From an uncultured Opitutaceae bacterium (GTDB lineage Bacteria; Verrucomicrobiota; Verrucomicrobiia; Opitutales; Opitutaceae), in NCBI GenBank assembly GCA_903952145.1, contig CAJBES010000096.1, forward strand, positions 1 to 64,000: a stretch of DNA of 64,000 nt, read 5' to 3'. The notes under the pieces are model-generated. The model made no database searches and was not told the origin of the DNA. It saw only the letters and a program-made list of their open reading frames with translations. A program made the translations under genes and the position numbers. Below, piece after piece: positions 40,261-52,686 of the stretch. Within the stretch, counting starts at the first letter, position 1. Each line of letters begins with the position of its first letter.

Positions 40261-40797
40261 TCAACCGCTTTCGGCCTCCCGGGCCAGCAACCAGAGCAGA
40301 TCGGCGAGCCGGTTTACAAAACGGTGCAGCGTGGGCCGAATGCTGCGGCCGTGGGCGGGGAGGGCGACGAGACGGCGCTCGGCGCGGCGGGCGGTGACGC
40401 GCGCGATTTCCAAGGCGGCGGCCCGGGCATTGGCCCCGGGCGTGGCCCAACCGTCGAACTTCAGGCTCTTGGCCTCAAGCGCGGCGATGGCATCGTCGAT
40501 CCGGGCGGTATCAGCGTCTGTGAGTTTGGCAAACTTGGAGGCCGCATAGCGCGCGGCGTCGGCCTCGGCGCAGGCCAGCTCGCCCATCAGCGCGATGAGA
40601 TTTTGCTGCAGGGCGCCGATCAGAGTCAGGATCGAAATATCGGCCGGACCGAAATGCGGCCGCACGGCACCGAGGGCGACGTTGAGTTCGTCAAAGGTGC
40701 CCACGGCCTCGATCTGCGGGTGGTCCTTGGGCACGCGCTGGCCGTAGAGCAGTCCCGTGGTGCCGCCGTCGCCAGTGCGGGTCGCGATGGAGCTCAT
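40261..40797 (-). CDS. PduO-type ATP:cob(I)alamin adenosyltransferase
   Basis: MSSIATRTGDGGTTGLLYGQRVPKDHPQIEAVGTFDELNVALG ... ARVTARRAERRLVAL ... FVNRLADLLWLLAR. Confidence 0.93.
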   Translation of the reverse strand: MSSIATRTGDGGTTGLLYGQRVPKDHPQIEAVGTFDELNVALGAVRPHFGPADISILTLIGALQQNLIALMGELACAEADAARYAASKFAKLTDADTARIDDAIAALEAKSLKFDGWATPGANARAAALEIARVTARRAERRLVALPAHGRSIRPTLHRFVNRLADLLWLLAREAESG

Positions 40798-41366
40798 GGG
40801 GCCTTGGTCTTTTCGCGGGTGCATTGCGCCAGTTCCTTAACGGCCTGGTCCACGGAGGTGCGGACTTTTTTCCCCATGCGGTCGATGAAGAGAGTGCCCT
40901 TCAGGTGGTCAAACTCGTGCTGGATGCAGCGCGCCAGCAGGCCGTCGCACGCCAACACATGCGGGATGCCGCATTCGTCCTGGAACTTCACCGTGATGGC
41001 GTCGGGGCGGATGATATCGCCGCGGATACCGGGGAAGGAGAGACAGCCTTCTTCGAAAATATATTCATCGGTGTCCGGTCGCACCGTGAGCACCGGGTTG
41101 ATGAGCGTCAGGGGCATGAAGAGCTCAAGCGGGGGTTTGGCCCCGTCGAGTTCCCAGATGAAATCCATTTCAGCGGCGCGCAGGTCCACCACGAAGAGTT
41201 GCAGGGCGCGGCCGACTTGCTGGGCGGCGAGGCCGATGCCGTGCGCCGCCTGCATGGTGGCGATCATGTTGGCGGCGAACTGGGTGAGCCCGGCGTCGAA
41301 GGCGGTGATTTTTGCGCCTTTCTTGCGCAAAATCGGGTCGTTGTAGTGAACAATCGGCAGGGACAT
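40794..41366 (-). CDS. def: Peptide deformylase
   Basis: GIGLAAQQVG, EEGCLSFPGI, QHEFDHLKGTLFIDRM. Confidence 0.95.
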   Translation of the reverse strand: MSLPIVHYNDPILRKKGAKITAFDAGLTQFAANMIATMQAAHGIGLAAQQVGRALQLFVVDLRAAEMDFIWELDGAKPPLELFMPLTLINPVLTVRPDTDEYIFEEGCLSFPGIRGDIIRPDAITVKFQDECGIPHVLACDGLLARCIQHEFDHLKGTLFIDRMGKKVRTSVDQAVKELAQCTREKTKAP

Positions 41367-41431: not shown

Positions 41432-43090
41432 ATGAGCGCCGCCTCCCGTCCCCGCCGTGCCCGTCGCGCCCTGCTAAGTGCAGGGGCGGGGCTGTTGCTG
41501 GCGGCAGCGGCCTGGATGCTGCCGGTGAATATGAATTCGGTGCCGCCGGCGCTGCTGGGTGCGGCCGGTGCCGGCACCCCATCGGTGACGGAACTCGGCC
41601 GGCAATTGGTGGCGGCGGAAAAGATCGGCCCAGCGGAGCTTGTGCTGACGGCGGCGCAGACGATCGGAGCGCCCGGGGCCTCCGCGCTGGCCGCAGACGT
41701 GGCCGCGCTGGCGGCGCAACAGGCGGAGCTGGTGGCGTGGGGCGGCTGGGATCCCTTCCTCGACCCGCTGTTCAAGCTGCGTGACCGCACAACCCCGGCG
41801 GTGAGTACGCCCGTGCTGACCTTTCTGCTGCCTGAGCAGGCCCGCAGTGTGTTGCGCGGTTACTTGGAAAACTCGCGCTCGTTCGGCGTGCAGGCGCTGC
41901 TGAAGACCCGGCCGCTTACCGCGACCGGCCGCTTCGTGCCGGCGCTGCAGCCGGGCGGCCAGCCGCTCGATGCGGTCATACTGCTCACGGCCCTGCTCTA
42001 CCAGGGGGAGCATCTTTCAGCCGCGCTGCAACGCGAACTGCGCGCACTGGCGGAGACGGCGGTGGCCAACCGCCAGCTCGGGGAGCTTGAGCCGTTTTTC
42101 ATGGACCTGCTTTCGCTGGGCCGGCGCTTGAATTGGGTGCAACTCAGTGAGTTGCTGCGTCGCACCCAGGACGCGAAGACCGTGGGCGAATTTGCCCACC
42201 TTGCGCGCGTCGCGCCGGACCAGCTCGCCCTGATCTATACGGCGGCGCTGGCCTCGGATTCGGCCGATCGCGTCGCGGCCTACCTCATCCAATACGGCAC
42301 CACCGGCCTCGGGGACCTGCGGCTGGCGCTGACGCACGGGCAGGGCGCGGTGCGGCTGCTCTTGCTGCGGCAGGTGCCGGTCAACCGCGAGGCGGGTCCG
42401 ACCATCGGGGGCACCGCGACGCTCGCATTGTTGCACCCGCAGGCAACCCTCTGGCTGAAATACCTCGCCTACCTGCTGGGCGCCTACCTGGTTTTCCGCG
42501 GCCTCGACCGTTGGCTCATCCCGCCGGCCGAGCGCGTTGCGCTGGCCCTGCCGCGGGCCAAGAGCGGCGTGCTGGCCTGCCTCTTCGCCGCCCTGCTGGT
42601 GCTCGCCACCGAGCCCTTCCTGCTGAAGGCCGCGCCCCCCTCCGAATTCAAGGCCCGGCTCGTGCTGCCGGTGCTGGTGAACACCGCCGAATCTCCAACT
42701 CCCGCAACCAACCAGACTCCTCCCCACATGGACACTTCCACCATCCTCTCCATCGGCTTCTTTGCCGCGCTCCAGATCGCGATGTATCTCATCTGCCTCG
42801 CCAAGATCCGCGAGGTCGCCCTCCAACCCGTGCCACCCCTCGTGAAACTCAAGCTCATGGAGAACGAGGAGAACCTCTTCGATGGCGGGCTCTATGTAGG
42901 CATCGGCGGCACGGCCGCCGCGCTGGTGATGCAGGTGCTCGGCTTTATCGAGCCCAACCTGCTCGCGGCGTATTCCTCCAACCTCTTTGGCATCACCTGC
43001 GTCGCGCTGGTGAAGATCCGCCACGTGCGTCCCTACAAGTGCCGGCTGATCCTCGACAGTCTGGCCGAGTCCGAACCCGCCACCCGATGA
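41432..43090 (+). CDS. Multi-TM hypothetical protein (possible two-domain fusion)
   Basis: Long ORF, TM helices at N-, mid- and C-terminal regions; Pro/Thr-rich linker before MDTSTILSIGFFAALQIAMYLICL. Confidence 0.7.
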   Translation: MSAASRPRRARRALLSAGAGLLLAAAAWMLPVNMNSVPPALLGAAGAGTPSVTELGRQLVAAEKIGPAELVLTAAQTIGAPGASALAADVAALAAQQAELVAWGGWDPFLDPLFKLRDRTTPAVSTPVLTFLLPEQARSVLRGYLENSRSFGVQALLKTRPLTATGRFVPALQPGGQPLDAVILLTALLYQGEHLSAALQRELRALAETAVANRQLGELEPFFMDLLSLGRRLNWVQLSELLRRTQDAKTVGEFAHLARVAPDQLALIYTAALASDSADRVAAYLIQYGTTGLGDLRLALTHGQGAVRLLLLRQVPVNREAGPTIGGTATLALLHPQATLWLKYLAYLLGAYLVFRGLDRWLIPPAERVALALPRAKSGVLACLFAALLVLATEPFLLKAAPPSEFKARLVLPVLVNTAESPTPATNQTPPHMDTSTILSIGFFAALQIAMYLICLAKIREVALQPVPPLVKLKLMENEENLFDGGLYVGIGGTAAALVMQVLGFIEPNLLAAYSSNLFGITCVALVKIRHVRPYKCRLILDSLAESEPATR

Positions 43091-44478
43091 ACAAGACGCT
43101 TCTGCTCATCATCTGTGATTTTCTGCTGCTCAACCTGCTCGCTTTGACCCGGTGGGAAATCGCGGAGCCGGCGTCCGGGAAACAACCGCCGGTGCCCAAG
43201 CTGGCGGCCAATGCCACCACCAAGGACCAGGATCTGGTCGCGGTGATGCAGGCCGCTTTGACGGACGAGCGCGGCACGCGCGACTCGCTGGCGGAGAAAC
43301 TCACCACCACTGAATCCACGCTGGCCGAGCGGGAGCAGAATCTCGCGCAATTACAGACGGATAAAACCCGGCTGGCGACAACGCTGACCGATACACGGCG
43401 CGCGGCCGAGGTGCTCACCCGGCAGGTCACCGCCGCCACGCAGGACGCGACGATGACCAAGGAGCAACTCGTGCGCCTGCAACGCGAGCTGGACGAAAAA
43501 CGCGCCGAGGCGCAGCGCCAGGCCGGGGCCATCGCCAGCCTGGAGCAGCAGCAGGGCGAGGCCCGCCAGAAGATCGAGGGCCTGTCCGTGGCGGTGAAGG
43601 TGGCGGAGCAGGAAAAGGTCATGCTCAAGGAGACTGCCGAGGTCTTCCGGCTGCAGGCCGCCGCGGAGCGGGCCGAGCGCGAGAAAGTGCAGGCCACGAC
43701 GGTGCAACTGGCGCAGGGCGTCGGCGATCTCGCGGAACAATCCGGGGCGCTCACGCGGGAGATCCGCGACCACCGGCCGGTCAACGCCAATGTGCTGTTC
43801 AACGATTTCCTCCACAACCGGGTCAGCACGGCTTTCACGGCCCACCGCAAATCCTTTCTCGGTCCGATCACGCGCACGAAGGAGGCGCGCACCGTGTTCA
43901 TCACCGACGGGGCGCAGATCTATGCCCTCCTGCACATCGATGACACCCCATTCTCCCTGCACGAAAACGGTGCGGATTGGGAGAAGCTGACGGCGGAGTT
44001 CTCGCGGCCGCCCAACTACCGCACGGCGGCGGAGCGGCTGGACTTTCTCGCGCTCGACCCGCGCGTGGTGGTGCTGCCAGTGAGTGCCGAGCAGGCGGCG
44101 GCCCTGGGGGTCAAGGTCTACCAGACCGCGCTGGAGCCGTTCAAATTTTCCGAGGCGGTGCTCATCAGCGGCGGTGGCACCGGCTACGGCTCGGTGACCT
44201 TCAAGCTTGATGCCGCGCAGCCCGGCTATGTGAGCGTGGACAACCGGCTCGTGACGCGGCTGTTTGGCGAATTTGCGCCGTCGCGCGGCGATCTGGTTTT
44301 CAGCAAAACCGGTGAGTTGCTCGGCATCATGGTCAGCAGCGGCTACTGCGTGATCGTGAACAACGTGCTCCCGACGAAAAGCCTCCGCACGGGTGATGAC
44401 GTGAAAGCCCAGCAAACCGGCCAAATCCTCGACGAGCTCGCCGCGCGCTACCGCAGCCTGCCCTTCAAGGTGCAGTGA
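43087..44478 (+). CDS. TM-anchored coiled-coil protein with C-terminal degenerate trypsin-like domain
   Basis: MNKTLLLIICDFLLLNLLALTRW anchor, long coiled coil, C-terminal SRGDLVFSKTGELLGIMVSSGYCVIV; ATGA overlap with upstream gene. Confidence 0.72.
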   Translation: MNKTLLLIICDFLLLNLLALTRWEIAEPASGKQPPVPKLAANATTKDQDLVAVMQAALTDERGTRDSLAEKLTTTESTLAEREQNLAQLQTDKTRLATTLTDTRRAAEVLTRQVTAATQDATMTKEQLVRLQRELDEKRAEAQRQAGAIASLEQQQGEARQKIEGLSVAVKVAEQEKVMLKETAEVFRLQAAAERAEREKVQATTVQLAQGVGDLAEQSGALTREIRDHRPVNANVLFNDFLHNRVSTAFTAHRKSFLGPITRTKEARTVFITDGAQIYALLHIDDTPFSLHENGADWEKLTAEFSRPPNYRTAAERLDFLALDPRVVVLPVSAEQAAALGVKVYQTALEPFKFSEAVLISGGGTGYGSVTFKLDAAQPGYVSVDNRLVTRLFGEFAPSRGDLVFSKTGELLGIMVSSGYCVIVNNVLPTKSLRTGDDVKAQQTGQILDELAARYRSLPFKVQ

Positions 44479-44560: not shown

Positions 44561-45757
44561 ATGGCAGCGCGGAAACCTAACATCTTGTGGATCGTGACCA
44601 CGCAGTGGCGGGCGCAGGCGTGCGGCTATGCGGGGGATGCGAATGCACGCACGCCGGCACTGGATGAACTGGCGGCGCAGAGTGTGAACCATGCGCAGGC
44701 GGTGACGCCGCATCCCTTCGGTCCCTTCGCGCGGGCGGCGATGCTCACCGGGGTGCCCTCGCCACAGAACGGGGTGTGCGACTATTTCGATCCGTTGCCG
44801 GACGGGGCGCGCACGATCGCGCATGAGCTGGAGGGGCGCGGCTATGCGACGGCGTTTTTCGGCAAGTGGCATCTGGCGCGCCGCGATCCGGCGGCGCCAC
44901 CGGTCGGAGAGGCTCACGCGCGCATGATCGTGCCCCCCGCGGCCCGCGGCGGATTTGGTTTATGGGAGGGATTCGAGGGCGGGTTTTTGCTGAACGACCC
45001 GTGGCTGCAGGGCACGCGCCTGTCGGAACCGGTGGCGGTGCGCGGCTACCAAAGCGACGTGCTCTGCGAACGCGCGGCGGGGTGGATGGCGGATGCGGGC
45101 AACCGGCAACCGGAGCACTGGTTTTGCATGGTGAGCCTGGAGGCGCCACATCCGCCCTATGACGCACCGGCGGCGGGCGTGGCGCGGCGGGCGGTGGAGC
45201 TGGCGGCCAATGTGCCGGTCGCGGCCACCGGGCAGGCGCGGCGTGAACTGGCGGGTTATTATGCGCACATCGCGGCGACAGACCGCGCCATCGGGCGGCT
45301 CGTGGCGCAAGCGGACGGTGACACCATCGTCGTCTTCACCAGCGTGCACGGCGACATGCACGGTGCGCACGGGCTTTTCCGCAAGGGCTGGCCGCATGAG
45401 GAAAGTGTGCGTGTGCCGTTGCTGGTGCGTCACCCCCGGGAGCTGCCGCGGCGGGACGATGCGCCGGTTTCACTGCTCGACTTGCAGGCAATGACGCTGG
45501 CGTGGGCGGAAGGAAACCTCTGGCGTTGCGCACGGGCGGCGGCAGCGATTTCGATGCCGAGTGTGGTGCGGTGGCCGCACCAGTGCGACCGCGTGTGGCA
45601 TGGCTGGCGCACACCAGGGCGCAAGCTCGTGCTGGGCGATGACGGCGCGACCTGGCTGTTTTTCGATCTGGAGGCGGATCCGCTGGAGAGGCACAATCTG
45701 GCGACGGATCCGGCGAGGGCGGGGGAGTTGGCAACGCTGAGGCGCAGGCTGGGCTGA
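44561..45757 (+). CDS. Sulfatase-fold protein with non-canonical active site
   Basis: KPNILWIVTTQWRAQACGYAGDANARTPALDELAAQS..., PFGPFARAAMLTGVPSPQNGV, GYATAFFGKWHLARR, VVFTSVHGDMHGAHGLFRKGW, SVRVPLLVRHP. Confidence 0.88.
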   Translation: MAARKPNILWIVTTQWRAQACGYAGDANARTPALDELAAQSVNHAQAVTPHPFGPFARAAMLTGVPSPQNGVCDYFDPLPDGARTIAHELEGRGYATAFFGKWHLARRDPAAPPVGEAHARMIVPPAARGGFGLWEGFEGGFLLNDPWLQGTRLSEPVAVRGYQSDVLCERAAGWMADAGNRQPEHWFCMVSLEAPHPPYDAPAAGVARRAVELAANVPVAATGQARRELAGYYAHIAATDRAIGRLVAQADGDTIVVFTSVHGDMHGAHGLFRKGWPHEESVRVPLLVRHPRELPRRDDAPVSLLDLQAMTLAWAEGNLWRCARAAAAISMPSVVRWPHQCDRVWHGWRTPGRKLVLGDDGATWLFFDLEADPLERHNLATDPARAGELATLRRRLG

Positions 45758-45879: not shown

Positions 45880-49833
<3,954 letters not shown>

Positions 49834-49914: not shown

Positions 49915-52686
49915 TCACGGTGCGGTGAAGGGCGGAGTGGCTAGGAGGTTGGGCGCAACCGGCTGGTCTTTGGCGGGGGGAGTAAAAATGGAACGGAGGA
50001 AATTCGTCGGGCCGATGACGAAGGTCCACTCGGGCTTGTTGAGTTGCCCGGTGAGTTTCACCTCGAGCACGCCCGAGAGCGGGATGAGGACGAGGCCGAC
50101 CACGCTTTTGAGAATGAAGGTGCTTTCCAAAAACGGGAAGACGCGCGCGTGGAAATCGAGCTCCTTGCGGGTGAGCAAGTAGGAGCCGCGGGCGGTGACG
50201 GCGGCGTCGGGCCCGGTGAGATTCACATGAGGAAAGACGAGTGAGTCGCGTTCGACCTTGAAGTCGGTCTGCAAGGTGTCGAAACGGAGGGCGGTGAAAT
50301 TGAGCAGCTCGGAGAGGAGACCGAGGAGCCGGACCCGACCGAGACCCTGGCCCCTGAGGTCGGCGCGGCCGGTCCCAACGAAACTGCGGGGATCGGCGGT
50401 GTCACCCTCGGCGCTGACATCCAGCGCCATGCGCACCTGGGCGGTGCGCTCGATGTAGGCGCTGTTCGCGGCGGGGGGGGCGCCGCGGCGCAGGGCGAAG
50501 AAAGCCTCCACTGCGGTGGCCGCGTCACGCAGGGAAGCCTCGCGGAGCGACAGCGTGAAACCCAGCCGCCGGCGGTCCTCGGGCCCGGTGAGGCGGATGC
50601 TGCCGGTGACCGTGCCGCCGGCGAAACCGGCCTCAAGCGGCGAGATACGCAGTTCGTCGTCGTCAAGCACGGCGTTGAAGTCGAGATGCTGCAGGGGGAA
50701 ATCGTGGAAGGAGAAGGCGCCGGAGCCGCGGCCCTCGATGTGGATCCGGCGGTGCGCGCCCTGCGGGGCGGCGGGGCCGTCGATGCGGCCGCGGGCCCGC
50801 ACGCTGGGCGGGGCGGCAAAGACGAAGGGCTGGAGCATCACGCGCACTTCCGGGCTGACCAGACCTGCGGCGGCGGGCAGTTCAAGGGTGGAATCAAAAT
50901 CAAACGTCAGACTCTCCAAGGCGGATCCCACCGGGGCCACGCGCCGCGTGAAATTGCCGCGCGCTGCGCCGCCACCACGGGTCGCAAACGCCTCGAGCAC
51001 ATCGTAGAAGTGCGGCCGGATGAACAGGCGCGCAATGACGTGGTCGAGCGCGATGCTGTTGATGACGGGCTGCACGCAGTCCGCAAAAACAAAGACAGTC
51101 GTTTCCGGCCCATGCCCCAACCGCCCGCGGATGTCCACATCCGCCACGGGCGCGGCCTGGGTAAAGTCAAAATGCTCCCAGAACTTCGGCCACCACTCGC
51201 GGAACCAGCCACTGATAACGGGCGGGTGCAGCCGGCCCGATAGGAGGAAGCGGAATTCGCGCGAAGCAAACACCTGCTCGAAGCTGCCGCGCGCGAAATT
51301 ATCGCCGATGAACGCGACGGCCTCGGTGGCGAGGAAACGTCGCCCGTCAAACTCGATGTGACCGGCGAAGGCGTCCATCGGCACATGGTAGGCCGTGGCA
51401 TCAGCGCCGGCGATGTAGCCGGCGAGGCGGGCGAATTTCCAGCCGGGGGTGAAGCTGACCTCAAGGTCGAAGCTGGGGGCGGACCTGAAATCGATGAACG
51501 AGCGGAGGCCAAGCCCGAGCCGCTGGCCGAGCGGCACGAGCAAGCCGGGGGCGAAGCGGCCGGCGGCACGGAAACGGGCGCTCTGCTCCGCGGCATTGAA
51601 CGTGCCTGCCAGCACAAGGGGCTCGCCGAGCACACGCGTGGTGAGCTCGGCCTGGAGCGCGGGGAGCGGGCCGGCGGCTCTCAGTGCGCAGGGGCCGGTG
51701 ACGAGGCCGGGGGCGGAAACGCCGGTCGCCGTGACCTCGGCCTGCAGGAAATCAAACCGGCGCAGGTCGGGTTGCAGGCGGCCGCGGATGAGGGCACGCA
51801 CACCGGTGGCACCCGACTCCGGGGCAAGCTTCACCGAGCCGGCGGTGACGTGGAGACTGGCGATGCTGGGAGTGTCGCCGAACAACGGCAGGCGCGTGGC
51901 GACGCGCACCCGGGCGGCTTCGAGCGGCAGCGGCGCGACAAGTTTCAGGCTGGCGGCGAGCAGTTCGACCTCGACGAGGGCGCCGTGCGTGGCGGAGGGA
52001 GTGAGCACGAGGTCCACGGTGGGTGCTTCAAGGACGACGAGCCGGTTGGAGAGCTCGATGAAATGGCGGCAGATGGCGGGATAATTGCGCGCCAGCAGTG
52101 CGGGGAGGGACAGCAACTCGCCGCGGTCACGGTGCAGGGGTGTGGTTTGAAAGGCGCCACGCGCCGTGACCTTGAGCGTCGACAGCCGGCCGGCGAGTTG
52201 CGGGAGGGTGAAAACGCGCGGGCCGGGCACAAGCGTGAAGTCGAGATCGTGCAGCAGCGGCTCGCTGCGCCCGGTGGGCGAGAGCATCGCAGGCACCTGG
52301 AGACTGGCGCCGGACACCTGCAGTTCACGCGGTTCGAACCGGCCCAGCAGGAGCGCCCAGAGATCGAGGGTGATGTAAACCGAATGCGCGGTGACCACGG
52401 GATCGGTGAAGGCGGGGAGCGTGAGCCGGACCTGTTCGATGAGCACGTGGCCGGCGGGATCGAAGCTGGCGCGGCCGAACTCCACCCGCGCACCGGAGAC
52501 TGCGAGCCGCTCCTCAAGACTGCGGAGCACGAAGCCGGGGAGCGCAAGTTCGCGGGAGCTGGCAATGAAGATTTGAAAGGCAAGCAGGATGGCCAGCGCG
52601 AGCCAGAGGGACCACAGGCAGAACGAGGCGAGGCAGGCGGTGCAAAAGCGCGTGCCCTGCCAGCAGAGTTTCAGCCAAGGTTGCAT
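49915..52686 (-). CDS. Large AsmA-like protein (923 aa)
   Basis: N-terminal TM followed by long repetitive beta-rich sequence; C-terminal FKVERDSLVFPHVNLTGPDAAVTARGSYLLTRKELDFHARVFPFLESTF typical of AsmA-like C-termini. Confidence 0.7.
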   Translation of the reverse strand: MQPWLKLCWQGTRFCTACLASFCLWSLWLALAILLAFQIFIASSRELALPGFVLRSLEERLAVSGARVEFGRASFDPAGHVLIEQVRLTLPAFTDPVVTAHSVYITLDLWALLLGRFEPRELQVSGASLQVPAMLSPTGRSEPLLHDLDFTLVPGPRVFTLPQLAGRLSTLKVTARGAFQTTPLHRDRGELLSLPALLARNYPAICRHFIELSNRLVVLEAPTVDLVLTPSATHGALVEVELLAASLKLVAPLPLEAARVRVATRLPLFGDTPSIASLHVTAGSVKLAPESGATGVRALIRGRLQPDLRRFDFLQAEVTATGVSAPGLVTGPCALRAAGPLPALQAELTTRVLGEPLVLAGTFNAAEQSARFRAAGRFAPGLLVPLGQRLGLGLRSFIDFRSAPSFDLEVSFTPGWKFARLAGYIAGADATAYHVPMDAFAGHIEFDGRRFLATEAVAFIGDNFARGSFEQVFASREFRFLLSGRLHPPVISGWFREWWPKFWEHFDFTQAAPVADVDIRGRLGHGPETTVFVFADCVQPVINSIALDHVIARLFIRPHFYDVLEAFATRGGGAARGNFTRRVAPVGSALESLTFDFDSTLELPAAAGLVSPEVRVMLQPFVFAAPPSVRARGRIDGPAAPQGAHRRIHIEGRGSGAFSFHDFPLQHLDFNAVLDDDELRISPLEAGFAGGTVTGSIRLTGPEDRRRLGFTLSLREASLRDAATAVEAFFALRRGAPPAANSAYIERTAQVRMALDVSAEGDTADPRSFVGTGRADLRGQGLGRVRLLGLLSELLNFTALRFDTLQTDFKVERDSLVFPHVNLTGPDAAVTARGSYLLTRKELDFHARVFPFLESTFILKSVVGLVLIPLSGVLEVKLTGQLNKPEWTFVIGPTNFLRSIFTPPAKDQPVAPNLLATPPFTAP

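Follow-up and report, generated by a model that had tools for sequence, protein, structure and literature searches.

The window, the whole stretch of 64,000 nucleotides that was analysed, comes from an uncultured member of the Opitutaceae and carries a gene for a sulfatase-like protein that we call the pseudo-sulfatase (Table 1). The order of genes at the locus is PhoH, (cobalamin adenosyltransferase), peptide deformylase, A592, B655, pseudo-sulfatase, (histidine kinase), AsmA-like, DUF4340 and two same-strand genes. Neighbours in relatives were located in tblastn searches that used the genes of the window as queries, length-based calling being unreliable here (GC-rich shadow ORFs). The upstream or the downstream part of this order also occurs at 8 of the 9 loci of a more diverged sister group described below, and the locus is an ancestral syntenic place of the gene. 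The adjacent genes A592 and B655 (41432..44478, +) are kept together beside peptide deformylase across the family; B655 is hydrophobic at its N-terminus and contains a long stretch resembling a coiled coil. The histidine kinase, which tblastn did not find beside the pseudo-sulfatase gene at the sister-group loci, sits between that gene and the AsmA-like gene in many relatives, as if inserted later. The neighbours were considered as operon partners, but this found no support: the distance to B655 is not constant, the kinase was not found at the sister-group genes, and neither A592 nor B655 has a known domain. The neighbourhood is conserved as chromosomal synteny.

Table 1. Features of the pseudo-sulfatase locus, with positions in the window
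Feature	Position	Strand	Remarks
Peptide deformylase, syntenic marker upstream	40794..41366	-	
A592, conserved syntenic neighbour	41432..43090	+	No Pfam match
B655, conserved syntenic neighbour directly upstream	43087..44478	+	On the strand of the pseudo-sulfatase gene; no Pfam match
Pseudo-sulfatase gene	44561..45757	+	398 aa, ATG start; predicted S1-sulfatase (alkaline phosphatase superfamily) fold; no signal peptide
Thr14 in TTQ, replaces metal-ligand Asp	44600..44602	+	Thr in 98/98 orthologues; Asp in 11/11 active-type homologues
Gly54, replaces formylglycine Cys/Ser of [CS]-x-P-x-R	44720..44722	+	Gly 97/98, Ala 1; Cys in 11/11 active-type homologues
Arg58, anion-pocket Arg kept	44732..44734	+	98/98
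Lys102 of GKW, kept	44864..44866	+	98/98; adjoining His104 variable
His197 of PHPPY, kept	45149..45151	+	98/98
Val262, replaces metal-ligand Asp of SDHG	45344..45346	+	Val 93, Ala 4, Met 1; never Asp
His263, second residue of D-H/N metal motif, kept	45347..45349	+	98/98
Lys275, anion-pocket Lys kept	45383..45385	+	98/98
Hybrid histidine kinase (CHASE, PAS, HisKA, receiver), convergent	45880..49833	-	Here in many, not all, relatives
AsmA/YhdP-like protein, syntenic marker downstream	49915..52686	-	

The sulfatase layout in an otherwise intact reading frame, noted in the original prediction, is borne out by a match to PF00884 (Pfam Sulfatase; E=2e-33) over residues 6-316 of the 398-aa product. 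Several NCBIfam sulfatase models match below their curated cut-offs, the top one being PRK13759 at 147 bits. An AlphaFold2 model built with 59 orthologues reached a mean pLDDT of 92.8 and a pTM of 0.94, and in a Foldseek search of the PDB its 50 best matches were sulfatases, headed by 6j66 and 2qzu (query-length TM-score 0.83). The protein is thus predicted to keep an intact S1-sulfatase fold, and the structural comparison that had been proposed as a check confirms the layout at this level; residue equivalence is based on sequence-profile alignment together with the overall fold match. Neither a signal peptide nor a transmembrane segment was found in the protein, in which no 19-residue stretch exceeds a Kyte-Doolittle mean of 0.95. 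The chain opens directly with the first strand, and in most orthologues TTQ starts at about residue 12. Given the lack of such segments and the position of TTQ, we infer that the pseudo-sulfatase is cytosolic.

The active-site motifs of the window protein are NILWIVTTQWRA (with T14), PHPFGPFAR (G54 and F56), GKWHLARR (K102 and H104) and TSVHGDMHGAHG (V262 and H263). Profile alignment to solved sulfatases pairs Thr14 with the metal-ligand Asp, Gly54 with the formylglycine Cys/Ser (a Ser in 2qzu; in 6ptk the Ala introduced by the C84A mutation) and Val262 with the Asp of (S)DHG, while Gln15, Arg58, Lys102, His197, His263 and Lys275 each align with their normal counterpart. Among 4058 FGly-sulfatases, conservation is 96% for the first Asp and 99% for the Asp of D-N/H-G (PMC5066984). 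The replacements read in the original prediction, TTQ for TDQ/DDQ, Gly for Cys/Ser in GPFAR and SVHG for DHG, all fall in these columns and recur across 98 distinct orthologues from many assemblies, over which the conservation counts were taken (Table 1). The kept residues Q15, R58, K102, H197, H263 and K275 are each present in 98/98. At least 98% conservation is reached by 8 of the 10 active-site columns vs 91 of all 398 (hypergeometric P=1.7e-4). The Lys and His of GKWHLARR had also been described as kept; this is true of both in the window protein and of Lys102 throughout, but His104 is not fixed family-wide. Its column reads H in 70 orthologues, G in 26 and Q in 2, with about 8 parsimony changes on the tree, so that the residue has been lost repeatedly; Gln stands there in 6 of the 9 sister-group sequences.

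The sister group comprises nine more diverged Opitutaceae sequences (46-51% identity) with the same losses. The 11 active-type homologues (28-36% identity), on the other hand, keep the Asp of xDQ, the Cys of the C-x-P-x-R region, GKWH and DHG. Four positions are newly fixed in the pseudo-sulfatase clade: Y75, D77, Q164 and E194 (E or D throughout). Glu194, three residues before His197, is a gained invariant acid where active-type homologues have Gly or Gln, and D77 is another where they mostly have Val. H267 was considered as a new metal ligand of the clade and dropped, as two active-type proteins, L114 (in G003) and L115 (in G081), have it too. These two keep the Cys, show no evident signal peptide and already read HGDMHGSHG; among active proteins they may stand closest to the pseudo-sulfatase.

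All 47 altered sequences in the tree form one clade (support 100/100) against the 11 active-type outgroups; the tree was midpoint-rooted for drawing and its bootstrap is not fully settled. The phylogeny suggested as a check in the original prediction thus finds a whole clade sharing TTQ, G-x-x-A-R and S-V-H-G. Because all altered sequences fall in this one supported clade, the altered state needs only one origin, in the Opitutaceae lineage. The three active-site changes are real, but rather than independent, as first described, they are better regarded as fixed together on one stem branch.

Orthologues were found in 60 of the 61 Opitutaceae genomes examined, mostly at 50-77% identity (one fragment reaches 90%). 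G003, which is 94% complete and belongs to the same genus as the window, lacks an orthologue and has only an active-type homologue. Distribution beyond the phylum rests on a single scan of a GTDB-species genome collection, in which the best 80 of 262 loci came from records named Opitutaceae, Opitutae/Opitutia or unspecified Verrucomicrobia. Within the phylum, a DNA pattern for HGDMHGxxGxx(R)K matched 37/37 family genomes and 0/351 genomes outside the family. One family genome, G416, has two matches to this pattern (C13:199245-199283, L139, and C17:153365-153403), of the HGDMHGSQG and HGDMHGSHG types. Another, G037, has two sister-type copies (L172 and L174), each with its own AsmA-like/DUF4340 neighbourhood; given 7% contamination, these may represent two strains in one bin. 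The gene is otherwise single-copy and vertically inherited. Median dN/dS is 0.24 over 3453 pairs, with a maximum of about 0.50 (Nei-Gojobori; rough, as many dS values are high), which points to purifying selection on the gene. No phage carriage was found in IMG/VR and no match in PADLOC that would suggest a defence role, and the one PHROG match is to a family with no assigned function.

Four family genomes (G014, G019, G025 and G048; 94-100% complete) have the pseudo-sulfatase as their sole PF00884 protein, and no homologue of the formylglycine maturase FGE was found in G048. On these grounds, the protein needs neither an active sulfatase nor its maturation enzyme. Two other PF00884 proteins are encoded in the window's own genome, one an LtaS-like membrane protein and the other of the Thr type; both lack C/S-x-P-x-R. 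The soluble one, L002 (G000:C31:1492-2418), reads TTPGYSSMFTG at the nucleophile motif and is apparently a Thr-type member rather than a formylglycine sulfatase.

Since formylglycine and the acidic metal ligands are absent, the pseudo-sulfatase should be unable to hydrolyse sulfate esters by the sulfatase mechanism, and it very probably does a job other than cutting sulfate. The non-sulfatase function originally proposed is in keeping with columns lost clade-wide, and purifying selection and family-wide conservation argue that the function is a real one. We lean towards a family of sulfatase-fold pseudoenzymes that arose once and binds a specific anionic ligand in the cytosol as a regulator or carrier. 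In this scenario, the kept pocket of Arg58, Lys102, His197, His263 and Lys275, reshaped by Tyr75, Asp77, Gln164 and Glu194, would hold a specific sulfated or phosphorylated small molecule, and the ligand-bound protein would serve as a ligand-dependent regulator or carrier.

The main rival, which we consider possible but on balance unlikely, is that the protein is still an enzyme but one of a new kind, acting as a hydrolase, transferase or isomerase that does not depend on formylglycine and uses E194, D77, H51 and T14, perhaps with a shifted metal bound by H263/D265/H267/H270. The cleft is conserved as strictly as in an enzyme, and the strict conservation of many of its residues would fit one, as would the new invariant acids E194 and D77. 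However, H267 is not new to the clade, the formylglycine position offers no candidate nucleophile (G54 is fixed), and His104 is dispensable. About as unlikely is a formylglycine-free, possibly metal-free cleft chemistry (E194, D77, H51 or T14) acting on an Opitutaceae-specific metabolite; if true, the alkaline phosphatase fold would have been repurposed into neither a classic enzyme nor an empty relic. Pseudoenzymes often serve as scaffolds or adaptors, and a protein-protein role via the surface, with the pocket merely a structural relic, would suit the single-copy, vertical inheritance, which resembles that of a housekeeping component. We regard it as rather improbable, because the pocket is among the most conserved parts of the protein and a relic would not need that.

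The other explanations carry little weight beside a ligand-binding pseudoenzyme. A decoy or heteromeric subunit that modulates an active sulfatase paralogue could be imagined in those Opitutaceae that have numerous sulfatase-like proteins, FGly motifs among them, but the genomes with no other PF00884 protein and the missing FGE largely refute this as a family-wide function, and in the window's own genome the only further members are one LtaS-like and one Thr-type protein; it is very improbable. That errors of alignment or sequencing have disguised an ordinary active sulfatase is scarcely credible, even though active sulfatases are the top matches to the protein in both sequence and structure. 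The same letters recur in the 98 distinct orthologues, which refutes it at the sequence level, and none of them has another Cys/Ser or Asp in the lost columns; such substitute residues were what the original prediction had named as a refutation of a pseudo-sulfatase. The least credible explanation is a decaying pseudogene: catalytic residues are indeed lost, but it is refuted by the intact frame, the low dN/dS and the near-universal presence in the family.

A literature search of open-licence papers found no published description of such a pseudo-sulfatase family. If our reading is right, annotation pipelines are likely to label the Opitutaceae protein a sulfatase via PF00884 although the known mechanism would be impossible, and sulfatase counts would be inflated in a phylum studied for the turnover of sulfated glycans. 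A near-universal gene limited to the Opitutaceae, with a repurposed anion pocket, would also offer a tractable case of an enzyme becoming something else, given its single origin, the active-type relatives within the family and the genomes in which it is the sole PF00884 member.

Among known systems, YejM/PbgA (LapC) provides the functional precedent: its periplasmic domain, sulfatase-like in fold but lacking the Cys/Ser of sulfatases, serves as a regulator (PMC7773988). YejM is membrane-anchored, periplasmic and related to LtaS and EptA, whereas the pseudo-sulfatase is predicted to be cytosolic and of the S1 lineage. The N-terminal transmembrane domain of the YejM/PbgA-LtaS-EptA proteins is missing from the pseudo-sulfatase; YejM keeps a Thr nucleophile and the metal-site Asp, whereas the pseudo-sulfatase has Gly54 at the nucleophile and lacks that Asp. 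YejM is also a caution: once judged inactive on similar grounds, it was later reported to be a Mg-dependent phosphatase (PMC7576196), and the inactivity that we deduce from sequence is likewise a verdict that an assay could contest. Other PF00884-like proteins without a formylglycine precursor exist, namely those of the Thr type (PMC5066984). These (TxNxE and similar; LtaS, EptA) share this lack with the pseudo-sulfatase but carry Thr at the position where it has Gly.

The closest comparison is with the S1 sulfatases (YidJ of Bacteroides, 2qzu; chondroitin 4-O-endosulfatase, 6j66; PRK13759), with which the pseudo-sulfatase has in common the full-length fold, the equivalents of Q15, R58, K102, H197, H263 and K275, and a similar C-terminal D-x-x-x-DP-x-E-x-x-N element. 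Unlike them, it lacks the Cys/Ser precursor and the Asp at both main metal-ligand positions, its His104 is variable, and with about 400 aa and no signal peptide it is shorter than the S1 enzymes (440-500 aa or more). Of the features that define an S1 formylglycine sulfatase, the fold (PF00884) and the pocket Arg, Lys, His and Lys (R58, K102, H197 and K275) are present, while [CS]-x-P-x-R, the N-terminal metal Asp and the Asp of D-N/H-G were looked for and are absent. Because it lacks these three, the pseudo-sulfatase does not belong to the formylglycine sulfatases by their defining features; having a homologous fold, lost catalytic residues and conservation under selection, as a pseudoenzyme should, it is best described as a lineage-wide pseudoenzyme family derived from them.
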